Positions 13,844 to 36,780 of a DNA stretch of 64,000 bases are shown piece by piece. Below the pieces are notes generated by a model. That model saw nothing but the letters and a program-made list of their open reading frames with translations. It did not search any database and was not told the DNA's origin. Source of the stretch: Meghimatium bilineatum (taxonomy: Eukaryota; Mollusca; Gastropoda; Stylommatophora; Philomycidae); contig CM067306.1 of assembly GCA_034231615.1 (NCBI GenBank), positions 65,685,790 to 65,749,789 on the forward strand. Direction: 5' to 3'. A program made the translations under genes and the position numbers. Position 1 is the stretch's first letter. The number at the start of each line of letters is the position of its first letter.

Positions 13844-16096
13844 TCAGGGTCGTAGGGGTACCACATTGGATGCTTCAACACACAGAGTCCTCCAGCGAAT
13901 TCTATCGTCAGCGATGCGGATGAGTGTGGAAATATCTAGCCCTGTCCATTCCTTGATGTTGTCTGTCCATGTCTTTATTTGTCCTCCTCTGCTTCTTCCA
14001 CCCTCGACAGTTCCCTGCAGTATTGTTTTTGACAATGAATCGTGCCTGCATACATGTCCGAACCATGCTAGTTTTCGTCGTTTCACTATTGAAAGCAATG
14101 GCTCCTGGACACCTGCACACATCTCTACTTTATTTCTTACGTACACATTGGTCTTATGTTCCCTATAGGAAATTCGTAGAATTCTTCTGTAGCATTTATA
14201 CTCGAAAGCCTGTAATCTTCTCTCCATGTCCGCAGTGAGTGTCCAACTCTCACAACCATACAACACAACAGAAAGCACCAGCGACCTATACAGTTTGATT
14301 TTCACTCCAATACTGATGTTGCTTTTCCAAATCACAGTTAGCCTTGACAATGACGCTAAAGCCATCTCCAGCCTTATTTTTAGTTCTGCTTTGCATTTAC
14401 CATCGCTGCATATACTGGATCCGAGGTATTTAAAGGTATTCACCTCTTCAAGCTTGTGTCCATTCATCATGATATTAGTCTGGTTTTCTGTGTCTCTGCT
14501 GTTTACCAAAATTTTGCTCTTATCTGAATTGATTTCCATTCCGTACTTGCTGGTAACGTTTTCTAACTTTGATGTTAATTCTTGCAATGATTGTTCTGAC
14601 CCAGCTATAAGATCAATATCATCAGCGAATCGCAAGTTGCAAATAGGGCGACCTCCGATCGATATAGACGTGTTGTAGTCATGTAATGTCTCTTGTATGA
14701 TGTGCTCTAAGTATATGTTAAAAAGTACTGGGGACATTATGCATCCCTGTCGAACTCCCACAGTTGTTTTGAAGAACTCTCCAATTGTATTGTGTGACAA
14801 GACAGCACTATTTGCATTTTCGTACAGAGCTTCAATAATGTCTATAATTGTGGTGTCAAAATTAAATTTCCTTAGTATGTGCCACAGACCATCATGCCAA
14901 ACACGATCAAAGGCCTTTGTAAAGTCAATGAAGTTGTGGTATAAATCACGTTGGTGTTGAATATGTTTTTCGATTAGTGTTCGGATGTTAAATATTTGTT
15001 CAACGATGCTTCTGTTTGCTCTGAAGCCAGCTTGTTCTTCTGCAATTATTTCTTCCGACTTGTGTTTTATTCTGTTAAGTAGTATTTTGAGCATCACTTT
15101 ACTGGGGTGTGTTATAAGGCTAATTGTTCTGTAATTTGTACACACTTTCAAATTTCCTTTCTTGGGAATTGGTATTATTAGTGATTGTGTCCACTCAGTG
15201 GGCCATTGTTTTGTGTTCCATATATTTTGGCATATTTTGGTCATAATATTTACCACATTAATGCCCCCGTATTTCAACAATTCTGCTGGAATGTTGTCTA
15301 TACCAGGTGACTTCCCTCCTTTCAATGTTCGTATGGCCTCTTTTATTTCATCTACTAGAATTTCTGCATTTCCTATTTCTCTGTTGTATAGTTCAGAATT
15401 CTCTAATATCGTGTAGTCAGGATTACACTTGCAGTTATACAGCTCCTTGCAATACTCTGTCCATCTTTTCACTATATCTGTTGTTTCATTGAGTATCTTT
15501 CCGTGTTTGTCTTGTATTGTAGATATCGTTGGTCTATTTGGCTGTGTTATCTTTCTTAGAGTGTCGTATGCTACCTTACTGTTTCCGCGCTTAATACCTT
15601 CATTGATGGTTTCGCATTTTTCCTCTAGCCACACTTCTAGTGCTTGTTTCATTTTCCTTCTGATGTTTTTGTTTATTTTGCTATATTGCCCTGACATTTC
15701 AGGGGCCTCTTTCTTAATCTTTTTCATTTCTCTCCGTTCGTCACACAATTTTAGGATGTCATCTGTTACCCAAGGTTTATGTGTTATTCTTCTTGTCCCT
15801 AGTATTTCTGTTGCTGATTCTAATAAAGTTCCTTTCATGGTTTCTGTGAGAGAGTTAACATCTTCATTTACAAGGTTTAAAGCTGCAAATTTTCCTCCCA
15901 CTGTTGCCTCAAATATATCTGCTATTTCTGGATCTTTCAATTTTTCTAAATTAAATCTTAATCGTGTGCATTTGTTTTGCGTATGATTCTTTTTCAGCTT
16001 AATTTTGATCGTCAATAGAACCATATCATGGTCACTACCGATGTCTGCTCCTGGAAAAGTTCTTGTTTGTGCTTTGTTATATAACCATATTTCCAT
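13844..16096 (-). CDS. RTE-type retrotransposon ORF: endonuclease end plus reverse transcriptase (5'-truncated)
   Basis: A 750-codon uninterrupted frame. It starts within the APE endonuclease (SDHDMV, the last catalytic motif, about residue 22). The RT palm follows: GKSPGIDNIPAELLK (about 260-275), AGFRANRS (360), FIDFTKAFDRVW (about 390), VGVRQGCIMSPVLFNIY (about 445) and LRFADDIDLIAGS (about 490). Then come YLGSSI, the GCESWTLT and CYRRILRISY motifs, and a C-terminal domain with WFGHVCRHDS, ending VVPLRP. The product would act in target-primed reverse transcription in the nucleus. The frame is intact, suggesting a fairly recent insertion, but most of the endonuclease is separated and inverted, so this copy cannot act alone. 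The apparent ATG at 16096 lies at the rearrangement and is not the natural start. Confidence 0.88.
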   Translation of the reverse strand: MEIWLYNKAQTRTFPGADIGSDHDMVLLTIKIKLKKNHTQNKCTRLRFNLEKLKDPEIADIFEATVGGKFAALNLVNEDVNSLTETMKGTLLESATEILGTRRITHKPWVTDDILKLCDERREMKKIKKEAPEMSGQYSKINKNIRRKMKQALEVWLEEKCETINEGIKRGNSKVAYDTLRKITQPNRPTISTIQDKHGKILNETTDIVKRWTEYCKELYNCKCNPDYTILENSELYNREIGNAEILVDEIKEAIRTLKGGKSPGIDNIPAELLKYGGINVVNIMTKICQNIWNTKQWPTEWTQSLIIPIPKKGNLKVCTNYRTISLITHPSKVMLKILLNRIKHKSEEIIAEEQAGFRANRSIVEQIFNIRTLIEKHIQHQRDLYHNFIDFTKAFDRVWHDGLWHILRKFNFDTTIIDIIEALYENANSAVLSHNTIGEFFKTTVGVRQGCIMSPVLFNIYLEHIIQETLHDYNTSISIGGRPICNLRFADDIDLIAGSEQSLQELTSKLENVTSKYGMEINSDKSKILVNSRDTENQTNIMMNGHKLEEVNTFKYLGSSICSDGKCKAELKIRLEMALASLSRLTVIWKSNISIGVKIKLYRSLVLSVVLYGCESWTLTADMERRLQAFEYKCYRRILRISYREHKTNVYVRNKVEMCAGVQEPLLSIVKRRKLAWFGHVCRHDSLSKTILQGTVEGGRSRGGQIKTWTDNIKEWTGLDISTLIRIADDRIRWRTLCVEASNVVPLRP

Positions 16097-16171
16097 ATAA
16101 CCACATTAGAAGGACAGCTGGAGAGGAGATGGGCACCACTAGCTAAACCTTTTGCCCACTGAAATACTACA

Positions 16172-19587: not shown

Positions 19588-19810
19588 ATGAAAGTATCCG
19601 GATAATCGGACCTGACAGAGTCCAGGAGTTTCATGCTTGCGTTGGTACCAGTGCATACATTCCATGGCCTCTCAATATCATTTCAAGGACAGGCTATAGG
19701 TCAACTGTTGTGAATCTAATCTTCCAGCGGCGACACAGTGAGAAGAAGATGTTGGTGGCTACTCTTAATGGACCACGGGATTTGAAAACTGATGCCCAGT
19801 TTAGAGACAG
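19588..19810 (+). CDS. Ig-superfamily receptor, exon 2 (Ig domain 1, first part)
   Basis: Acceptor TGGGTCTGTTTCAG, then residues 18-91, starting DESIRIIGPDRVQEF. It holds strands A to C'' of a V-like Ig domain: Cys35 in the B strand (FHACVG), a conserved-type Trp close behind, and a long C-C' region (VVNLIFQRR ... MLVATLNGP). The exon ends at donor GTATGC in phase 2. The joined codon AG+A gives Arg, continuing smoothly into exon 3. The extracellular position follows from the signal peptide upstream and the membrane span downstream. No close family member is recognised. Invertebrate adhesion, immune or allorecognition receptors of this layout exist, but a specific role is not shown. Confidence 0.8.
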
Positions 19811-21339: not shown

Positions 21340-21830
21340 ATAAACATGCTACCAATGTTTGAATATTATGTAGATAGTTAGATTGTTTATCTGACTACCT
21401 AATGGTGATGTTAATGCAATACACAAACACAGGCTAATTGAGAACAAACACAGGCTAAGTGAGAACAAACACAGGCTAAGTGAGAACAAACACAGGCTAA
21501 TTGAGAACAAACACAGGCTAATTGAGAACAAACACAGGCTAAGTGAGAACAAACACAGGCTAAGTGAGAACAAACACAGGCTAAGTGAGAACAAACACAA
21601 GCTAAGTGAGAACAAACACAAGCTAATTGAGAACAAACACAAGCTAAGTGAGAACAAACACAAGCTAAGTGAGAACAAACACAAGCTAAGTGAGAACAAA
21701 CACAAGCTAAGTGAGAACAAACACAAGCTAAGTGAGAACAAACACAGGCAACATGCTACCAATGTTTGAATGTTATGTTGATAGTTTGATTGTTTATGTG
21801 ACTACCTAGCGATGATGTTATGTTCATCCA
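21340..21830. repeat. 21-bp minisatellite (about 15 units) inside an 80-bp duplication
   Basis: Units AACAAACACAGGCTAAGTGAG (one base type per position varies) fill 21420-21748. The flanks 21342-21420 and 21751-21830 are themselves copies, both beginning AACATGCTACCAATGTTTGA. The minus-strand frame reading SLCLFS repeats is an artefact of the 21-bp period. Confidence 0.9.
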
Positions 21831-21854
21831 TTGGATTGTATCACTTCTTGACAG

Positions 21855-21988
21855 ATTAATCATATCAAGTGAGAACTCTGGTGTTTTTCTAGACCGCATT
21901 ACCATGGATGATGCTGGTACCTACTTTGCTCAAGCTCATATTAGTACTGGTCAGGTCTGGACAAGGACCACTAATGTAACTGTCCATT
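21855..21988 (+). CDS. Ig-superfamily receptor, exon 3 (Ig domain 1, last part)
   Basis: Acceptor CACTTCTTGACAG, then residues 92-136: RLIISSENSGVFLDRITMDD, AGTYFAQAHI ... TRTTNVTVH. It contains the D-E-F strand signature of a V-like domain, D-A-G-T-Y, but the F-strand Cys position is occupied by Ala117. The G strand follows, with an N-glycosylation site (NVT). The exon ends in phase 1 at donor CATT/GTAAGT. It joins exon 2 in phase 2 and exon 4 in phase 1. The donor is unusual because its sequence is the core of a long tandem array in the next intron (23565-24165). Confidence 0.8.
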
Positions 21989-22039
21989 GTAAGTAATAGA
22001 ACAATGATGTTAACTGTCTACTGTATGTGGAGAAACTTG

Positions 22040-22195
22040 GAACAGGGTAATGATGTTTTGCTAATCACTGGAAACACACATAATTACACTCACAAATTGA
22101 CGTTTTGACCAAGAGGCCTTTATCAAGAACATTCACACAAAAAATGATGAGTAGGAATGACACTATAACGTTCAAAAGGCAGAGTTAAATATAGA
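22040..22195 (-). mobile_element. Penelope-like element terminal fragment
   Basis: GACGTTTTGACCAAGAGGCC then TTTATCAAG is the reverse of the Penelope-like 3' end seen at 41440-41470 (TTGATAAAGACCTTTTGGTT). Related copies lie at 25860-25970 and 62300-62400. Confidence 0.6.
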
Positions 22196-22205
22196 TATAA
22201 CCCAA

Positions 22206-23150
22206 AAGTGTTGGTTGGTTGCTGATCCAGGGGTCCATGGGCTCATGCCCTTTGACAAGTCCCTGAATGTCATTGCTGATGTAAGTAATTATGCCACAGC
22301 AGTTGGTACACTTACAGACATAGCTGATATAGGTCAGTGTCTTTGTGTATAGTCTCCTATAAGAGGGCCACATGTGTCTTGTGAGTGTGTAAAAAAATAA
22401 CAAGCTCTAGTTTTTTGTTTCTTATACCACACATGTTCAGTTGTAGGATGTTAAACATAGACTTTATTTTATGACAATCTTGACTGCTGGTTCTCTCTCT
22501 AAGGTTTTCTGGGTTTAATGTTTTGGTGCTTTGTAGGTGTTGTTGCTGTGTTGTGTATTGTGCATTTCAGTGTTGTTGTTTTTGATGTACTCCAATAGTT
22601 AATTTCTTGGCTAGAGCAGCTAGTTACCCATTGTCTGCCATGAACTTTGATAACCGAGGCGACATCCAAATTCATTTGTAAATATTTGTTTTATTGACAT
22701 TATGTTGCTGGGAAGTCTGTGGATTTTCAGCCCACCCTGGGCCAGAACCAGAGAATAACTATCACACCAAAAGGAAAGTAGGTTTCTACCTATGCACTGC
22801 TCCGAGCCACTACAACCAAGATAAGGTTCTTGTGTTATGCCGAAATTCTTTATTGCTTCATGCATGCAACCAAATGTTCAAGTCAAAATGATTGTCACGT
22901 CCTGAGTCACTGTGCCTCTATGATAGGCCTCAGCCATAGGAAAAATCAGTCTGTCAGTTTCCTCCTTCCCAGTGCTATGCAGTACAACTCTGGCTTCCTA
23001 CCCACCACAGAGGATGTTACATATATAAAAATAACAAAGCATAAATCACATTTCAACAACAAAATAAAAGCATGAGAAGCATAATTGTATAGATGACATG
23101 CCATGATGCTTCTATAAGAAGAGAACCTCAGTATAACAGCATGTCATCTA
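22206..23150 (+). repeat. Rep-F copy 2, with a 425-bp interruption and terminal hairpin
   Basis: 22206-22262 is the Rep-F start. Unrelated DNA follows, and Rep-F resumes about 22690 and runs to 23150. The right end is a hairpin: TAGATGACATGC (23090-23101) and GCATGTCATCTA (23139-23150), a perfect 12-bp stem. Confidence 0.7.
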
Positions 23151-23239
23151 CTAGGGTTTTCTGTTGTACAATAATGTAAAAAAATTATTTTAAAATTTCT
23201 AAGAATAAAATAGTTATTGTGCTTTCCAAACAGTAACAC

Positions 23240-23560
23240 CCATGTTTGTTGGAGTTTTTTATGTGTATTTTGCAAAAAGTCTTTACCACTTTCTCACACC
23301 TCTCTTATCACACATACAGAAAAAAACTACACATATTTGCAGTATGCAATTTTTTATTTACATTTACAAATCGTATTTTTAAATCTCAAAGAACATAATA
23401 GATTATTTTGCGTTATCCACAGATATATGTTTGGTTGTTTTTATTGGTTTAAAAAAAACCCATCTGTACCACTTTTTCACAGCTCTTGTATCAGACATAC
23501 AAAAATTGCACACATATTTGTAGTGTACAATTCTTTATTTACATGTGCAAATATTACTTA
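23240..23560. repeat. Diverged tandem duplication, about 185-bp unit
   Basis: Two related halves share ACCACTTT, ACATACA, ACACATATTTG and TTTTTATTTACAT in the same order. No coding evidence. Confidence 0.5.
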
Positions 23561-23564
23561 CTAG

Positions 23565-24165
23565 GACCACACATTTAATTGTCCACTAAGTATTAGGATC
23601 ATGAAATTTAGTTGTAAGTACTGGGACCATAAAATTAAGCTGTCTATTGTAAGTACTGGGACCATAAAATTAAGCTGTCCATTGTAAGTACTGGGACCAT
23701 AAAATTAAGCTGTCCAATGTAAGTACTGGGACCATAAAAATAAGCTGTCCATTGTAAGTACAAGGACCATAACATTAAGCTGTCCATTGTAAGTACTGGG
23801 ACCATAAAAATAAGCTGTCCATTGTAAGTACTGGGACCATAAAATTAAGCTGTCCATTGTAAGTACTGGGACCATAAAATTAAGCTGTCCATTGTAAGTA
23901 CTGGGACCATAAAATTAAGCTGTCCATTGTAAGTACTGGGACCATAAAATTAAGCTGTCCATTGTAAGTACTGGGACCATAAAATTAAGCTGTCCATTGT
24001 AAGTACTGGGACCATAAAAATAAGCTGTCCATTGTAAGTACAAGGACCATAACATTAAGCTGTCCATTGTAAATACTGGGACCATAAAATTAAGCTGTCC
24101 ATTGTAAGTACTGGGACCATAAAAATAAGCTGTCCATTGTAAGTACTGGGACCATAAAATTGAAC
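23565..24165. repeat. 35-bp minisatellite carrying splice-donor copies, about 17 units
   Basis: Unit TGTCCATTGTAAGTACTGGG plus ACCATAAAATTAAGC, in intron 3 of the receptor gene. Nearly every unit holds CCATT/GTAAGTA, identical to the donor of exon 3 (GTCCATT/GTAAGTAA at 21982-21996). The first units (23565-23615) are diverged. Confidence 0.95.
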
Positions 24166-24284
24166 TATCTGTTCTTATAATCTTCCCGATCTACTAAAAA
24201 ATGCCAAATGTCTATATGATTATTTCAGGGGTGTTGTGATATTATGTTATTACCTAATGAATAAACTGACTCTTCAATCTACAG

Positions 24285-24427
24285 TGAGGCCGATTGTGTA
24301 CAATGGACGATTAAACATCAGCAAGTCCGAAGTTGTGTACCATTCCAACAACAATAGTAATTGTGTGAATATCACTTGCGGAAATATCGAGTATGCTGGA
24401 TATCCTCCAGCCAAGTTCGTGTGGAGT
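24285..24427 (+). CDS. Ig-superfamily receptor, exon 4 (Ig domain 2, first part)
   Basis: Acceptor CTCTTCAATCTACAG, then residues 137-184: LRPIVYNGRLNISKSEVV ... NCVNITCGNI ... YPPAKFVWS. It holds the linker and B-C strands of a C2/I-like Ig domain, with Cys168 in the B strand and Trp183 in the C strand (PPAKFVW). N-glycosylation sites are at NIS, NNS and NIT. An additional Cys163 may pair with one of the extra cysteines in exon 5. Entry is phase 1 and exit is phase 0 at donor GTAAGT. The donor region is duplicated 46 bases downstream. Confidence 0.82.
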
Positions 24428-24519
24428 GTAAGTTACATTAAGTTGTCTCTGTCTATGTATACAGTGGAATTGTGTAAGTTACATCAAGTTGTCTCTGTCC
24501 ATGTATACAGTGGAATTCC
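24428..24519. repeat. 46-bp duplication of the exon 4 donor
   Basis: GTAAGTTACATTAAGTTGTC at 24428 recurs as GTAAGTTACATCAAGTTGTC at 24474. Both copies run through ATGTATACAGTGGAATT, so the unit includes the donor and the first bases of the MITE that follows. Confidence 0.9.
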
Positions 24520-24684
24520 GTTATAACAACTTGGTTTGTACTGAAGAAATTTGTATGTAATAACAGAAATTTGCTATATACAATACAAATAATATAGAAT
24601 AAATATAATTGGGGATTTGAAAAGTGTTGTTATATAAGGAAATTTGTTATAAAAGAATGTGTTATAGAGGGATACATTCCACTG
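24508..24684. mobile_element. Tc1/mariner-type MITE (Rep-E), 177 bp
   Basis: Terminal inverted repeats CAGTGGAAT (24508-24516) and ATTCCACTG (24676-24684), flanked by TA on both sides. The interior has GTTATAACAACTTGGT and TTGTTATAAAAGAATG. Non-coding. Related diverged copies lie at 54130-54500 and a piece at 25570-25630. Confidence 0.85.
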
Positions 24685-25040
24685 TAGCTATTTATTTTCA
24701 GTTCCCTGTGGAATATAGTGCTGGAACTGTTGCTCTTAAATGATATCTGTGCTGTATTGTCCTCATCAGTTGTTCCTAATTTATTCCTTTCTTCACTTCT
24801 TCTTCACATGTTCCAGGTTTAAAAATATTCATTACCCGTGGGTTACATTCCAGTGCCTGTTTGGTTCTATTGTCATGCTTCTTTCTAAGAGTGTCCTTTA
24901 TATCTCTATTGTCTACTTGTGATCTTCACTTCCAGCTGGCATAAGTTATCTCTATATAATATCCGTATTGGTCAGCCTGTTCCCTTCAGCTTGTGTATTT
25001 GTTGTGGTTTAAAAAAAAAATTAATTCATTTTTGTAGGAA

Positions 25041-25115
25041 TAAATAGCCAGGAGGTTAGAGTGTCAGTCTCATAACCATGAGGTGCAGATTCAAATCCAG
25101 CATTTTCTTTGTCGG
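25041..25115 (+). repeat. tRNA-like SINE head
   Basis: GGTTAGAGTGTCAGTCTCAT then AACCATGAGGTGCAG and GATTCAAATCC resemble the A box, a CAT anticodon loop and the B box of an elongator tRNA-Met. Stem pairing is degraded, so this is a tRNA-derived SINE relic and not a tRNA gene. Confidence 0.55.
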
Positions 25116-25214
25116 GGGCTAAATTAAAAGAAAACTCCCTGAATATGACGTGGTGACAGCAAGTACCTGTGGCCTTCATCATACAAACCACTGGCAACCT
25201 CTCTGAAACTCCCT

Positions 25215-25360
25215 AACAGGAAAATGCAGTATTGACAGATGGATATTGACCCTTTGACCCCAACATAAAATGCAGTATTGACAGATGGATATTGACCCTT
25301 TGGCCCCAACATAAAATGCAGTATTGACAGATGGATATTGACTCTTTGGCCCCAACATAA
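25215..25360. repeat. 44-bp minisatellite, 3 units
   Basis: Units CCAACATAAAATGCAGTATT plus GACAGATGGATATTGACCCT, three copies. Confidence 0.85.
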
Positions 25361-25389
25361 AAAGAGCACTTGTTCACATCATTTGTGTT

Positions 25390-25555
25390 CATTACAAATT
25401 CTTCTTCAGCGTTCATCATCAAGCTCCCACTGAATCTATCTTGTAGAAGGACAATGATCCTACTAGATTTCCAACAGGATGTAGTCCAGAGAATGGAAAT
25501 GCATTGTGTCACAATTTTATTTGCGACAATGGCCAGAGACATCCATCTTTGGCAT
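25390..25555 (-). mobile_element. Rep-A copy 2
   Basis: Reverse-oriented Rep-A (TTCTTCTTCAGCGTTCATC to CATCCATCTTTGGC). Candidate target duplication TTACAAAT / TTGCAAAT with one mismatch. Confidence 0.7.
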
Positions 25556-25564
25556 ATTATTGCA

Positions 25565-25765
25565 AATAATACAGTGGAATCCCTCTATAGCACATCCTTT
25601 TATCACAAATTTCAATATAGAGCAACAATTTTTGAAATCCATCTATCTATAAGCTGGCCCTTTTGTGCCTTGTGGCGTAAGAAGAGTTCTCTGGAGTTCC
25701 CTGTGTGCTGTTTGAAATCTATCTATCTATATACTGACCCTTTTGTGCCTTCAACAGTATATTGA
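25565..25765. repeat. Rep-E piece and a 100-bp imperfect duplication
   Basis: 25569-25630 is a reversed Rep-E fragment (ACAGTGGAATCCCTCTATAG). ATCTATCTAT followed by GACCCTTTTGTGCCTT occurs twice (25640 and 25725), the first copy with a LINE 3' word (AGAGTTCTCTGGAG). Confidence 0.5.
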
Positions 25766-25859
25766 TGGCCTTTTTGCATCTTTACAGATGACCCAGAAAG
25801 TTGGTCAATGTAAAAATTGATAATATGTACATACTGCGCAAAACTGAAATCCAACAGGT

Positions 25860-26225
25860 AGATCCAACAATAGGGTAATAAAGTTTTGCTAATAACTAGA
25901 GACACACATAATAACAGATACAAATTGACATTTTGACCAAAAGGCCTTTATCAAGACAACAATTGAAACAAAATTAAAATATATACCAGAAAATGACAGT
26001 AATAACATCGACGGTCACATTGGTATGTGTAATATAAATTGACCGAAAGAGGTGAAATGACACCGGACAAGGAAAATACAAAAATGACCACAAACATGTG
26101 ACATGAAACAAACAGAAACTATGGATCAACTTAGAGTCATACATGAGACAGTCGCTCATTAATATAAACATTACAAATAGACTAACACAACACCTCAACT
26201 TCCAGACTTTCTCACGACTGATTTT
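25860..26225 (-). mobile_element. Penelope-like element terminal region
   Basis: GGGTAATAAAGTTTTGCTAA, ATTGACATTTTGACCAAAAG and GCCTTTATCAAG match the reversed Penelope-like 3' end also seen at 22055 and 62310. Beyond that the 26000-26220 stretch is unassigned. Confidence 0.55.
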
Positions 26226-26466
26226 GTTGATTCTTGATCAGTAGAGGCAAGAATAGAATATACATAATGAGTCTAAATTTGAAGGATGCTTTTCATCCAT
26301 GTCGCTTGTCTTCTGACATCACCCTCAGGGCCTCCACAGATGATTGCTCAGGGCCCCCTCAGACAATTTAAAATTCATATTATAATAATTTATATAATAT
26401 TTTTTTTTCATTTTCAGTAGTATAATCACTGGTACTTATTATTTCCATCTTGTATCCTTCACGCAG

Positions 26467-26626
26467 GCACAGTTTAAAACTTTGTCAGTGAAGACTGCTA
26501 CAGATGATTCCACTAGTTCTGTGCACATTTGTTCTCCATTCTTTGGCCAGGTTACATGTTCTATAGCAGGATTCTCTTCAGTGTGTACCTATGATCACCT
26601 GGCAACATTAGTGCTGGATCTGCCAG
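26467..26626 (+). CDS. Ig-superfamily receptor, exon 5 (Ig domain 2, last part)
   Basis: Acceptor CCTTCACGCAG, then residues 185-237 in phase 0: AQFKTLSVKTATDDS ... HICSPFFGQVTCSIAGFSS ... LVLDLP. Cys215 in GQVTCSIAG is the F-strand cysteine that pairs with Cys168 of exon 4. Cys206 and Cys224 are extra. The donor is CCAG/GTTGGA (26626/26627), a weak match but in the phase (1) needed by exon 6, where it yields DLPAPPVNQ. If it is not spliced, the same frame stays open for 254 more codons through the 30-bp array at 26692-27330, to a stop at 27388-27390. Confidence 0.75.
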
Positions 26627-26691
26627 GTTGGACTTTAAAAAAAATGGTTTTTGTGGATAGTGCACTGAATATGTTGATTTTCTGTTGTAGG

Positions 26692-27330
26692 CAACTTGTA
26701 AATGTGGCTGTGGTATGGGTAAAGTTTGTAAATGTGGCTGTGGTATGGGTAAAGTTTGTAAATGTGGCTGTGGTATGGGTAAAGTTTGTAAATGTGGCTG
26801 TGGTATGGGTAAAGTTTGTAAATGTGGCTGTGGTATGGGTAAAGTTTGTAAATGTGGCTGTGGTATGGGTAAAGTTTGTAAATGTGGCTGTGGTACGGGT
26901 AAAGTTTGTAAATGTGGCTGTGGTACGGGTAAAGTTTGTAAATGTGGCTGTGGTACGGGTAAAGTTTGTAAATGTGGCTGTGGTATGGGTAAAGTTTGTA
27001 AATGTGGCTGTGGTATGGGTAAAGTTTGTAAATATGGCTGTGGTATGGGTAAAGTTTGTAAATATGATTCTGGTATTAATAAAATTTGTAAAAATGGCTG
27101 TAGTATGGGTGAAGTTTGTAAATGTGGCTGTAGTATGGGTAAAGTTTGTAAATGTGGCTGTGGTATGGGTAAAGTTTGTAAATGTGGCTGTGGTATGGGT
27201 AAAGTTTGTAAATGTGGCTGTGGTATGGGTAAAGTTTGTAAATGTGGCTGTGGTACGGGTAAAGTTTGTAAATGTGGCTGTGGTACGGGTAAAGTTTGTA
27301 AATGTGGTATGTGTGAAGTTTGTAAATGAG
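26692..27330. repeat. 30-bp minisatellite, about 21 units
   Basis: Unit AATGTGGCTGTGGTATGGGT plus AAAGTTTGTA, in intron 5. It is highly homogeneous apart from two decayed units at 27059-27120. Because 30 is divisible by three, frames stay open: one reads VNVAVVWVKF repeats (in frame with exon 5), another KCGCGMGKVC. Each unit includes the donor-like word GGGTAAAG. Confidence 0.95.
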
Positions 27331-27474
27331 GGCTGTGGTATGGGTAAAATTGTTAAATGTCACTGTGATGCAGGTGAAGTATGTAGGTGAATGCTTAATT
27401 TTATACGTATAAACTACTATCTGATACACGCATGCAAAAACATTCATATAGGGAACATAAGATGTTACATCATT

Positions 27475-27944
27475 AAGATGTTTTTGGTTCTTGTTACTTG
27501 TATCTGTTTGTGTACCTATAGTTTAAGATGGTTCTGGTTGTTGTGTCTGTTTGTGTACCTCTATCTTAAGATGGTTCTGTTTGTTATTACTTGTGTCTGT
27601 TTGTGTACCTCTAGCGTTCTGTTTGTTGTTACTTCTGTCTATTTGCGTACCTCTAGTTTAAAATGTTTCTGTTTGTTGTTACTTGTGTCTGTTTCTGTAC
27701 CTCTAGCTTAAGATGGTTCTAGTTGTTGTTACTTGTTTCTCTAGCTTGAGATGGTTCTGGTTGTCGTTAGTCGTGTCTGTTTCTCTACCTCTAGTTTAAT
27801 ATGGTTCTGTTTGTTGTTACTTGTGTCTGTTTGTGTACCTATAGCTTGAGATGGTTCTGGTTGTTGTTCACTCGTGTCTGTTTCTCTACCTCTAGATTAA
27901 GATGGTTCTGTTGTTATTACTTGTATCTATTTGTGTACCTCTAG
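27475..27944. repeat. About 50-bp minisatellite carrying splice-acceptor copies, 10 units
   Basis: Units of the type AAGATGGTTCTGGTTGTTGT then TACTTGTGTCTGTTTGTGTA then CCTCTAG. The last unit ends at the true acceptor of exon 6 (27944). Eight of the nine earlier units also end in a pyrimidine-rich stretch followed by CTAG or ATAG. One (about 27565) has lost the AG. Confidence 0.93.
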
Positions 27945-28119
27945 CTCCTCCAGTCAACCAAACTGTCGTACAGAAGAGCACTTCAATGCAAGATCTAATC
28001 TTGACGATTGTAATGCCAATCTTAGCCGTGCTAATCCCTTTAGCCATACTTGGTATGTGGGTTCTCAACAATATACTCAAGTCACATCCACAGAACAGAG
28101 GGCAGAACAACAGTCAGCA
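27945..28119 (+). CDS. Ig-superfamily receptor, exon 6 (stalk, transmembrane, juxtamembrane)
   Basis: Acceptor TGTGTACCTCTAG, then residues 238-295 in phase 1. There is a short stalk APPVNQTVVQKSTSMQD with an NQT glycosylation site. A hydrophobic span follows, LILTIVMPILAVLIPLAIL up to about residue 278, then a basic-polar cytoplasmic start NNILKSHPQNRGQNNSQ. A single span after a signal peptide makes this a type I membrane protein. The exon ends at CAGCA/GTAAGC in phase 2, matching exon 7. Two prolines inside the span are notable. Confidence 0.85.
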
Positions 28120-28129
28120 GTAAGCCAAG

Positions 28130-28400
28130 CCATCATCATTATTTTATCATCACTAACATCATTTCATCATCACCATCAACACCACCAATCACACAACTAC
28201 CACCACCAATCACAACTACCACCACCATCACAACTACCATTACCACAACTACCATAACTACAAGTACCATTATCGTCAACATCGCCATCACAACTACCAT
28301 CATGAACACCACATTTACTATCAACACCACCATCACAACTATCACTACACCATCACAGTCACTACCATTGCAACCACTACTACCATCATCACCACCACAG
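28130..28400. repeat. Imperfect CAT/CAC/ACC triplet tract
   Basis: Trinucleotide-rich simple sequence just inside intron 6. Open frames reading Thr, Ile or His runs are by-products. Confidence 0.85.
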
Positions 28401-28834
28401 AGAGAATTTTTTTCAGAAATTGTTAAGGATTATAGCTTGAAGCTACAGAGTTACATGCATGAGTGGTACCATTGACAGGTTGTGTGCTGCTGTGTTGAAA
28501 GGGGCAGAGTACACCTGAGGAAACCTGAGCACATTTAGGTCAATCCTCTATGATTTTAGCCTGCATTATTAACCTCAATTATAAATAATAAATATTTTTT
28601 TAAATGTATTGTTTTTCTAATATTTAGCTATTATGTTTTATTCAGAAACATTCTTCTAGTATACTATTTACGTCTGCTTTTCAGACAAGACAACAGACAA
28701 TACTCTGAACTAAATGTCATTCAATTCTGCACATTTTGATGTATAGTACATCACTGTAGATTTACAAATAAATAAAATATTGTACAAAGACAAAATGTAA
28801 CCACACTCTTAATTTTGTTGCTTAGTTCGTAAAC

Positions 28835-29145
28835 ATGTATGCAAAGAAAAACTTAAAGCAGATGAATAGTTTCACAAATTTTAAAACATTAACTTCAGAT
28901 GGTAAATGCAAGACTGAAATTATAAGCACAATAGGACAAGCAAAAGCAGCATTCCATGAGATGAAAAATATCCTATGCAACAAGTCCGTATCGATGGATA
29001 CTAGAAAACGTGTCCTCAAATGCTACATTGAACCAGTGCTATGGAAGTGAAGCATGGACAATAAATAAGATATAACAAAAATCATTGGAGGCAGCGAAAA
29101 TGTGGTTTATTCGAAGAATGTTACGCATTCCTTGGACAATTGTTT
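28835..29145 (+). mobile_element. LINE RT end fragment
   Basis: Reads TLTSDGKCKTEIISTIGQAK, then KNILCNKSV and, after a shift, KMWFIRRMLRIPWT, the LRIPW motif of LINE C-termini. It abuts the first copy of the exon 7 acceptor repeat within about 10 bases. Confidence 0.7.
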
Positions 29146-29255
29146 TCTTACGGGCCACCTCAAGCTGAAATAGATGTAGAGGAAAATATTTTCTATTCTT
29201 ACAGGCAACCTCAAGCTGAAATAGATGTTGAGGAAGATATTTTCTATTCTTACAG

Positions 29256-29533
29256 GCCACCTCAAGCTGAAATAGATGTAGAGGAAGATATTTCAGCAGA
29301 ACAAGGACAGGATCTTGATGACAGCGCAGATGAGAACATTCAAACTGAGGTCAGGGAAGAAGATTCCTACGATGAAAATAATTTCCGTGTTATGGAAGGC
29401 ATCAACCGAGATTACCGCCATGTCCGCAGCAATAATTACGGTGCAGGTGATGAAGACAACAGAATTGTCGATGATAACGGTAGTGATGAGAATGGTGGTA
29501 ATAAAGGAAATGAGCAACAGCCATTAATGGATG
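29256..29533 (+). CDS. Ig-superfamily receptor, exon 7 (acidic cytoplasmic tail; two in-frame acceptors)
   Basis: Acceptor TTTTCTATTCTTACAG at 29255, then residues 296-388 in phase 2: PPQAEIDVEEDISAEQGQ ... SYDENNFRV ... NRDYRHVRSNNYGAGD ... QQPLMD. The tail is strongly acidic and holds tyrosines, including a YRHV (YxxV) sorting-type motif. No ITIM/ITAM consensus or enzyme domain is seen. A second acceptor at 29204, exactly 51 bases upstream, has the same pyrimidine tract and keeps the frame. Its use adds 17 residues, including IFYSY. A third copy (boundary 29153/29154) has CGG in place of CAG and is dead. The exon ends at GATG/GTAAGT in phase 1. Low complexity could mean relaxed constraint. 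Confidence 0.8.
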
Positions 29534-29800
29534 GTAAGTAACATTCTTTTAGTCCATCCATCCATCCATCCATCTAATCTAATCTAATCTATCTTATTTA
29601 TCTAATCTCTTTATATGCTGTGTCCCTTGTTTGTGGTAAGTAACATTCTTTTAGTCCATCCATCCATCTAATCTAATCTAATCTATCTTATTTATCTAAT
29701 CTCTTTATATGCTGTGTCCCTTGTTTGTGCTTATTTATCTAATCTCTTTATATGCTGTGTCCCTTGTTTGTGGTAAGTAACATTCTCTTAGTCTATCTGT
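29534..29800. repeat. Exon 7 donor repeated three times, with CTAAT-type simple sequence
   Basis: GGTAAGTAACATTCTTTTAG occurs at the true donor (29533) and again at 29636. A third copy at about 29774 has one change. They are separated by (ATCC)n and (TAATC)n repeats and the word CTTTATATGCTGTGTCCCTT. Confidence 0.9.
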
Positions 29801-31640: not shown

Positions 31641-31995
31641 GGAACAATTGTGTGAGTATGTTCAAGTCATGGAAAAAGTTGGCTATATTCTGTGCTTCAA
31701 GTTAGAGAAACGATTGGATACAGCTATTGTGAGTACTTTCAAGTTAGAGATATGATTGGATACAGCCATTGTGAGTACTTTCAAGTTAGAGAAACAATTG
31801 AATACAGTCATTGTGAGTACTTTCAAGTTAGAGAAACAATTGTGAGTACTTCAGAATTATAGACAGTTGGGTACAGCCTATATGAGTACTTTATGTTAGA
31901 AAGAGAGCTTACTGTCATTCTGGGTACTGTCTAGTTATAAATACAACTTTGTACAGCCACTTATGAGTACTTTAACCTTATGCATGCTGTGTTTA
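31641..31995. repeat. About 42-bp degenerate minisatellite, about 8 units
   Basis: Units with GAGTACTTTCAAGTTAGAGA then AACAATTGGATACAGCCATT. Relics of the same motif lie at 32730-32900. Confidence 0.8.
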
Positions 31996-32725
31996 CAATT
32001 ACGTAATTTCTCTTCTGCTGCGGAATTAGTTTTTGGAAATGTTATGCAATCGTTGCTGTCTGTTTTGAAATCGCAATAACGTTTTTGTTATTACAGATAT
32101 TTAAATAATATTTGCACATATAAATAAAGATTTGAATTCTGCATATATTTTTGTAGGTTTTGTTTGTGTGTGTGTGATACGAGACATGTGGAAAAGTGAT
32201 AAAGACAGATTATGACTTATCTAAAGCTAGGCCTACCATATTTTTGATCGATCGAAAGCTGTTGAATATTATATATTTTACATAGTGAGAACCTTGTGGA
32301 ACCTCGTGGTCTGTTTTAATTAAACAAATGGAAGTACTTACTTCTCAAGATTTCCATGTTGCGTTCAGAATAAATAATGATTTCACTGAATATACGAAGA
32401 TAGAAAAGTATAATAAACTCGATTCACTGTCATGTTGCTTCGCTGCAAAGCTGATTCTTAAAGATTGCTCAGATTTCCATTTAATAATCAAACACTGTCA
32501 TCTATCGCCATTTTGAAAATAGAAATGGGAAGTTAGATAAATTCTCTTCTCAATGTTGCCAAAGCATTCTGTCAAAAAAGCTACAGATCTCGATTTTTTC
32601 GTTTGGTTTCGGGTTTAGCGAACCAGGCGGTGGATTCTGCTGTCCGAAATCAAGACATGACACAATTCCGGCGGAATGCACTGCCTGAACACAGCATGCT
32701 AAAGGTTGAAGTTTTAAAGATCGAT
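31996..32725. other. No gene seen
   Basis: Intron 7 DNA without recognised elements. A short GT microsatellite is at 32163-32176. Confidence 0.35.
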
Positions 32726-35575: not shown

Positions 35576-36780
35576 AAGGTTTGTGAAAGTAGAATTGTTC
35601 ATTTGGAAGTCTATAAAAGCAAGATTAGTTATTTCAAAGTTTGGCATTGTAAAATTAATCATTTGAAATACTAGAATTGTGAAATTAATCATTTGAAATA
35701 CTGGAATTGTGAAATTAATTATTTCAAAGTATATTGTTATGAAATTCATAATTTCAATGCAAGTGGAAGTGAGATTAATTATTTTAGTTTGTCACAGTGA
35801 CAGTTATTGTCACAGTGACAGAAACTAATCATCTCAAAATGTAAAAACCAGATTTATAATTTGATATCCAGGAAAAAAACAAGTCTTTAATGGTCTCTTA
35901 AATTGGGATTAATCATTTCAAGGTATCCAAAACTCAGGATAATCATTTACATTTTTGTGAAACTAATCATTTCAAGATTTGTGAAGCTGATATTAATCAT
36001 GTGAAAGAGTGAGATTAATTATTTAAAAGAGAGAAATTCATTCATTTGAAAGAGTGAGAGATTAAACATTTGAAATATGTCAAAATGAGATTAACTATTT
36101 AAATTTCTGCCAGTGAGAATAGTCATTTCAAAGTCTGTCAAAGTGTGATTCATCATTTCAGTGTCTGTCAAACTGAGATTCGTTCATTCATTTTCCTTTT
36201 GCGCTGAAGTTAGTGCATAGGGCAGAGGTCAGATCTCTCCAATTCTGTTTGTTCAAAGCTATTCTGTACAGTTCTTGAATAGTACAAACTGAGATTAATC
36301 ATATAAAAATCTGCCAAACTAAGATTAATCATATAAATGCTTGATAAAGTGAGATTAATCATATCAATGTCTGTTAAACTGAGATTAATCATATCAAAGT
36401 CTGTCAAAATGAGATTAATCATTTTAATGTCTGTTAAAGTGAAAGTGAGATTAATCATATCAATGTCTATCAAAGTGAGATTAATCATATCAAATGTTTC
36501 AGAATGAGGTTATTTATTTGTAAGTGCGTCAGTAAGATTAATCATTTATGTTCCTTCATTGGGAAATTAATCATTTTATTTCAAAGTCTGCCAAAATGAG
36601 ATTAATCATTTCAATGTCTGTCAGAGTTAGAATAGTCATTACTATGTCTGCTAAAGTGAGATTCAAAGTCTGTAAAAGCTAGATTATTTATTTTAATAGT
36701 AGAAAGAGTGAGATTTTAATTATTTGAAAGTCTTGTCAAAAGTGAGATTATTTATTTCAAAATCTGTCATAATGAATATC
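35576..36780. repeat. Degenerate GAGATTAATCATTTCAAAG array, 1.2 kb
   Basis: Some 30 diverged units of about 28-36 bp sharing TGAGATTAATCAT and TCTGTCAAA. One small non-array insertion is at 36185-36285. Confidence 0.85.

Follow-up and report, generated by a model that had tools for sequence, protein, structure and literature searches.

Splice junctions inside tandemly duplicated units of a putative Ig-like receptor gene in Meghimatium bilineatum

The receptor gene and its paralogue

We analysed a stretch of 64,000 nucleotides from the mollusc Meghimatium bilineatum (contig CM067306.1 of assembly GCA_034231615.1; C9:65685790-65749789 in our coordinates, hereafter the window), which harbours a gene with 5 of its 12 placed splice junctions inside tandemly duplicated units. 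Judged from its sequence, this gene seems to encode an immunoglobulin-like (Ig-like) single-pass membrane protein with two Ig-like domains, one transmembrane segment and an acidic tail, and we refer to it as the receptor gene. Coordinates without a contig name are positions in the window, on the forward (+) strand unless otherwise stated. In our reading of the gene, each of the two Ig-like domains is divided between two exons, the first between exon 2 (19588..19810, first half) and exon 3 (21855..21988, second half), and the second between what are taken as its first half in exon 4 (24285..24427) and its second half in exon 5 (26467..26626). Exon 6 (27945..28119) would encode a stalk, the transmembrane segment (placed by eye) and the start of the tail, and exon 7 (29256..29533, counted from the downstream of two acceptors) the acidic cytoplasmic tail. 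The best Pfam matches, Ig_2 (E = 0.0008) and V-set (E = 0.002), are below the curated cut-offs and concern the first domain only; the second Ig-like domain and the membrane segment are taken as such from reading the sequence.

Searching the genome (1.61 Gb, 32 contigs) with the joined exons returned 12 matches, namely, the six window exons, five in a paralogue on C8 and one weak stray (E = 5.36). The paralogue (C8:54738625-54756362) possesses exons 2-7, the last of them located separately, with acceptor phases identical to those of the window gene, the lengths of exons 2 to 7 (window gene/paralogue) being 223/223, 134/134, 143/140, 160/160, 175/175 and 278/257 nucleotides (nt), and the identity by exon being 42-72%. 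Because the two genes share these exons, their phases and near-equal lengths, the 12 junctions of exons 2-7 could be fixed without transcripts, from open frames and GT/AG signals. Over 354 codons, the two genes differ at fractions of 0.271, 0.209 and 0.540 of first, second and third codon positions, and we therefore consider the receptor protein to be under constraint. Comparison with the paralogue was also used to look for exon 1 and the last coding exon; neither was located, the matches being scattered and mostly repeat-like. As a result, of the about 14 exon edges counted in the initial annotation, 12 junctions were placed, and the five in repeats are among them. We also observed a conserved block 3' of both receptor genes (31972-32490 and C8:54758151-54758682, 74.6% identity), which we read as non-coding because the similarity extends over several frames, and which is probably a 3' untranslated region.

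Junctions inside duplicated units

We mapped the bases lying in same-strand direct repeats by an ungapped diagonal scan (score at least 15, distance 6-2500). On this map the donors of exons 3, 4 and 7 and the acceptors of exons 6 and 7 lie in tandemly duplicated units, precisely the five junctions named in the initial annotation, while neither junction of exon 2 (itself supported by an open frame, GT/AG signals, and the length and phase in the paralogue) or of exon 5 lies in a repeat. The count of five depends on the diagonal scan, as an earlier map based on self-BLAST covered 3 of the 12 junctions, without the exon-3 and exon-4 donors; we think that BLAST dropped short-offset self-matches.

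At exon 4, a 46-bp tandem duplication of two copies (24426..24517) begins 2 nt inside the exon and takes in the donor (24427), the exonic share of the copies being these 2 nt and the copy donor lying at 24473. The exon-6 acceptor (27944) is the last element of a degenerate array (27473..27946) with units of ~38-51 bp containing a pyrimidine tract and an acceptor; eight earlier acceptor-like copies occur at 27521, 27614, 27656, 27706, 27744, 27794, 27844 and 27895, and 0 to 2 exonic nt are common to the copies. The exon-7 acceptor lies in a 51-bp tandem repeat of 2.9 copies (29145..29293), the units of which reach ~38 nt into the coding sequence. Copy 1 of this repeat reads ACGG instead of ACAG and has thus lost the AG, and copies 2 and 3 provide in-frame acceptors at 29204 and 29255. 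The duplication with the exon-7 donor (29532..29793) begins 2 nt inside the exon, and besides the donor at 29533 it includes two further copies, one of 32 bp at +102 (donor copy 29635) and a shorter one at +239 (donor copy 29772), with 2 exonic nt shared. The hexamer GTAAGT is present in the exon-4 copy, in both exon-7 donor copies and in 15 of the 17 listed units related to exon 3.

The exon-3 donor (21988) is related to a 35-bp array of ~16 copies (23586..24161), most units of which read CTGTCCATT followed directly by GTAAGTA, a copy of the exon-3 end and its donor. This array does not adjoin the exon, as it lies ~1.6 kb downstream. At the junction itself there is a degenerate two-copy 34-bp tandem repeat (21965..22032, found by alignment and also seen by eye), consisting of ~24 exonic nt and the donor, followed by an intronic second copy. 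The 16-mer at the donor (-8..+7) recurs exactly 12 times in the array (23612-24161), and the alignment of the array unit with the junction, which passes through the degenerate second copy directly after the donor, spans 56 columns with a score of 26, a value reached by none of 2000 shuffles (maximum 13). Outside the array, nowhere in the window does the unit match better than at the exon-3 junction; the next unrelated place scores 15. To go by these sequences, the kinship of the array with the exon-3 donor shows through the degenerate dimer. That the resemblance is due to chance and the array unrelated to the junction, which would leave four captured junctions, is favoured by the 1.6 kb of separation and by the lack of any copy scoring 15 within 650 bp (best 10); however, the exact 16-mer in 12 copies, the alignment score far above the shuffles and the position of the best match in the window make such a coincidence hardly credible. 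The intervening gap (22033..23560), when compared by blastn with the rest of the window and with other loci, gave interspersed-repeat matches over more than half of its length (22033-22188, 22210-22256, 22695-23166, 23288-23406 and 23463-23560), the remainder being without match. The array was probably founded by the donor-spanning repeat and may later have been separated from it as interspersed repeats inserted. Hence, the exon-3 donor, which the initial annotation described as lying in a duplicated unit, does share kinship with the array, but the body of the array is 1.6 kb from the exon.

Several other arrays lie near the exons. A 16-mer across the exon-3 acceptor (21853-21868) is found exactly in four units, and partially in others, of a 30-bp array (36292-36614) 14 kb downstream, which may be a chance match or a sign of distant kinship. 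Just upstream of exon 3, a 21-bp array of 15.6 copies (21340-21820) is situated between ~70-bp direct repeats (flanks judged by eye), as if an array had expanded within a larger duplication. Another 30-bp array, of 22.6 copies (26696-27367), starts ~70 nt past the exon-5 donor and has one frame open for 212 residues with the Cys-rich repeat CKCGCGMGKV. Judged by reading alone, this array is out of phase with exon 5 and probably non-coding, and we rejected it as a coding exon: from phase 1 of exon 5 and the AG before the array, TAA follows within a few codons.

Repeat load and chance expectation

Direct repeats cover 23.6% of the window, 34.6% of the receptor gene, 38.2% of its introns and 4.8% of its exons. 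When the set of 12 junctions was rotated within the gene, a mean of 4.05 junctions fell in repeats and a fraction of 0.374 of the rotations gave at least the five observed; when it was shifted over the window, the mean was 2.75 and a fraction of 0.184 reached five. With the distance limited to 650 bp, 4 of the 12 junctions are covered, the rotations giving a mean of 3.94 (0.564) and the window shifts a mean of 2.63 (0.302). On the self-BLAST map, the rotation mean was 3.49 (0.706 with at least three) and the window-shift mean 2.32 (0.423). The flanks of the receptor junctions, 20-500 nt away, are 43.3% (distance up to 2500) or 41.8% (up to 650 bp) repeat-covered. Since the junctions (5 of 12, or 42%) match their own flanks and the 38% coverage of the introns, there is no capture beyond the local load. 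We accordingly rejected an excess over the position-matched expectation, and the suggestion in the initial annotation that capture at these edges is more than chance is not borne out against the local repeat density.

The repeat load of the receptor gene is in part regional. The tandem-repeat share is 27% in the gene region, 20.6% in the window and 20.9% in the 30 kb that follow, compared with 10.8% in the paralogue region and 13.6% (range 1.4-32.1%) in 11 random 10-kb stretches. Random points had a spanning repeat in 61 of 200 cases in the gene, 66 of 300 in the window, 81 of 660 in the 11 random stretches, 17 of 200 around the paralogue and 20 of 400 in the flanks of chaperonin genes (see below).

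As controls we used 51 junctions, namely, the 12 of the paralogue and 39 of chaperonin (PF00118) genes. The chaperonin edges come from 21 of the 51 chaperonin matches, the junctions being located close to the match ends; this gave 42 edges, and three of them, both edges of one match and the donor of another, were dropped as no clear site was nearby. Within ~650 bp, no junction-spanning repeat was found at any of the 39 chaperonin or the 12 paralogue junctions. At this limit, 4 of 12 receptor junctions versus 0 of 51 controls gives a Fisher P of 0.0008, and with the paralogue as sole control (0 of 12) P = 0.093; the comparison of 5 of 12 with 0 of 51 yields 0.0001, but mixes distance limits, and we used the former instead. 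However, repeat coverage of the flanks (20-500 nt from the junctions) is 42-43% in the receptor gene versus 4.0% in the chaperonin genes and 4.7% in the paralogue, and at a flank rate of 4% chance alone would give 0 of 39 in about one sample out of five. Because flank coverage differs about tenfold, we attribute the difference between genes at least largely to repeat load, with capture following load. The arrays in introns 2, 3, 5 and 6 of the paralogue are different by eye from those of the window gene, and one of them ends ~17 nt before exon 2; turnover of the arrays seems to have occurred after the two genes were duplicated.

As a genome-wide proxy, tandem donor motifs were counted. The donor octamer AGGTAAGT occurs 57,460 times in the genome and forms 4,779 tandem pairs 20-50 bp apart, and the reversed octamer occurs 75,933 times and forms 5,647 such pairs. 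The resulting rates of 0.083 and 0.074 pairs per octamer (ratio 1.12) come from a coarse measure of donors only, without a significance value, in which pairs cluster in arrays and many octamers will not be real donors. For GGTAAGT at 15-bp spacing, 143 pairs were counted versus 158 for the reverse. This proxy shows no large excess of tandem donor motifs, only the slight one expressed by the ratio.

Two further observations fall outside the receptor gene. An open frame of 753 residues on the reverse strand of the window (13844-16105, -) is reverse transcriptase-like by eye and probably belongs to a retrotransposon. Elsewhere in the genome, PF14830, which we take to be the mollusc-type haemocyanin family, has 50 matches, which point to a mollusc. 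They fall in two groups, C15:48.69-49.24 Mb and C22:44.15-44.27 Mb, that appear to be large clusters of haemocyanin genes.

Splicing, origin and relatives of the duplicated sites

We checked the reading frames of 12 alternative sites, all of them at exons 4, 6 and 7. Eleven of these sites give a stop or a frameshift: each of the eight upstream acceptor copies at exon 6 runs into a stop, splicing at the exon-4 copy donor (24473) causes a frameshift, and at both donor copies of exon 7 the sequence GGT AAG TAA ends translation immediately. Because of these stops and the frameshift, the decoy copies at exon 4, exon 6 and the exon-7 donor cannot act as reserves for the same protein, and the reserve role envisaged in the initial annotation fails for them. 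The twelfth site is open and in frame; it belongs to the exon-7 acceptor pair, whose members, 51 nt apart with an open insert of 17 codons between them, have the same intronic end ctattcttacag. Of the isoform diversity that had also been put forward, a plausible case therefore stands at this pair only. Donor scores, computed with hand-entered weights, are close for real site and copy (5.9/5.9 at exon 3, where the adjoining degenerate copy scores 3.7; 6.6/5.0 at exon 4; 10.1/9.9 at exon 7), and competition between donor copies at the RNA level is possible on these figures. In the exon-6 array the acceptor letters are not better kept than the rest of the unit, in a weak test, since the sites themselves served as cutting points for the units and the alignment had gaps at its end.

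These observations are probably best explained by the ordinary birth and turnover of minisatellites in an unusually repeat-loaded gene, resembling the "mirages" of amphioxus and the human CBS repeat discussed below. Slippage or unequal exchange would have produced tandem copies of short stretches, some of which may have grown into arrays; with ~38% of the intronic bases in direct repeats, some duplications take in a splice site, at the rate expected for intron sequence. Because the exons agree with those of the paralogue in length and phase, the copy next to the exon is taken as the one in use, and the other copies would be intronic decoys. At exon 7 the duplicated acceptor carries in-frame coding sequence, and the two near-identical acceptors may give a tail variant of 17 residues. 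Since the paralogue has no such repeats at its 12 junctions, the repeats presumably arose, or were kept, in the window copy after the gene duplication.

Three other explanations deserve consideration. A mutational process operating at splice junctions, such as breakage linked to transcription or the copying of RNA, might seed tandem duplications there, in keeping with the 4 of 12 junctions versus 0 of 51 elsewhere and with copies whose exonic overlap is only 2 nt at the donors of exons 4 and 7 and 0 to 2 nt at exon 6, as if the duplications started at the boundary. However, the capture count equals the local expectation, the units reach well into the exon at exon 3 (~24 nt) and at the exon-7 acceptor (~38 nt), and the number of nt to the first mismatch is 2 at the latter acceptor too, so that this measure alone is no proof of an end at the boundary; selection against exonic repeats would likewise place ends there, and across the genome the donor octamer forms pairs hardly more often than its reversed control. 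We thus find little support for the junction-aimed process raised in the initial annotation, and regard it as very unlikely. A broader version appears improbable to us, if slightly less so. On that view, certain rapidly evolving receptor genes of this lineage would have tandem duplications seeded at their junctions, the exon boundary would fix where the duplications end, and the exon-7 acceptor copies would serve to make isoforms differing in tail length. It is also conceivable, though unlikely, that the duplicated junctions are used as alternative sites, yielding isoforms or unproductive transcripts that tune expression. The open, in-frame exon-7 acceptor pair with its identical intronic ends and the near-equal scores of the donor copies at exons 3, 4 and 7 would suit such a use; the stops or frameshift at exon 6, exon 4 and the exon-7 donor do not, nor does the lack of better conservation of acceptor letters in the exon-6 array (subject to the weakness of that test), and in amphioxus, similarly constructed cases reportedly undergo normal splicing (PMC3087553, PMC3902484).

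Several points nevertheless weigh against ordinary minisatellite turnover as the full explanation. The receptor gene stands out strongly from other genes (4 of 12 versus 0 of 51, P = 0.0008), and the donor octamer is slightly in excess in tandem (1.12). The local null includes the very arrays being tested and says nothing on why the gene is so repeat-loaded. The control genes also lack repeats beside their junctions, which makes load and capture inseparable in this sample; they represent one housekeeping family and one paralogue, and 31 of the chaperonin edges passed our score limits, the other 8 of the 39 used having been admitted by eye below them.

The closest relatives that we found are the mirages of amphioxus, tandem units of 10-72 and 150-160 bp located at both 5' and 3' boundaries, with regular splicing suggested to be undisturbed, according to the accessible parts of two reports (PMC3087553; on splicing also PMC3902484). 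Like the mirages, the present tandem units contain genuine donors or acceptors, and do so at both kinds of boundary: an authentic junction is contained in the unit at 5 of 12 junctions (at exon 3 with the array 1.6 kb off), and the copies carry AG/GT signals at exons 3, 4, 6 and 7. Unlike the mirages as excerpted, the present case, read from one assembly, concerns a mollusc rather than a cephalochordate, affects five junctions in one gene, includes several units with 0-2 exonic nt, and has one array set apart from its junction by interspersed repeats. Thus, our case resembles a kind already known from amphioxus, and differs in the count of five in one gene. In humans, the 31-bp variable number tandem repeat of CBS, c.1444_1467+7(16_21), has 16-21 copies (PMC2630376, in part). 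By its name alone, this unit comprises 24 exonic and 7 intronic bases, and each copy should carry the donor, much like the exon-3 unit with its ~24 exonic nt and donor; it differs from the present gene in that it concerns one junction and is polymorphic in people. Lievers, in a study of 2001, reportedly linked the CBS repeat to reduced enzyme activity, to judge from the title. Recently duplicated human genes, in segmental duplications, contain internal tandem repeats with units of ~30 bp, some at exon-intron boundaries, which may form novel introns (PMC2812944); in contrast, we saw no novel intron in the present gene, whose paralogue is 42-72% identical. In the potato RdRp gene an intron was created by a boundary-crossing duplication (PMC4974935), and some novel Drosophila introns are ascribed to tandem duplication of coding segments with a proto-splice site (PMC2891723), both as given in excerpts. 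Like the potato duplication so described, that at the exon-7 acceptor crosses the intron-exon boundary, but no copy was seen as a new intron here. The excerpted texts on worm minisatellites (PMC4039745) and earthworm introns (PMC12783039) do not describe junction copies, and a small search of the open-access literature aimed at molluscs, which is no proof of absence, turned up work on amphioxus PGBD5 and on Conus introns, the latter without junction repeats in the text seen, and no molluscan case.

Boundary-spanning tandem duplications have been proposed as raw material for new introns and alternative splice sites, with published examples found in amphioxus, people, a plant and flies. If junction-seeded duplication were true after all, genes such as this one would continually supply new splice sites and introns. 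The local control, which removes the junction-aimed claim, is a safeguard against reading too much into such cases where genomes are rich in repeats, and a gene with five captured junctions beside a paralogue free of junction repeats offers a clean pair for studying how spliceosomes ignore near-perfect decoys.

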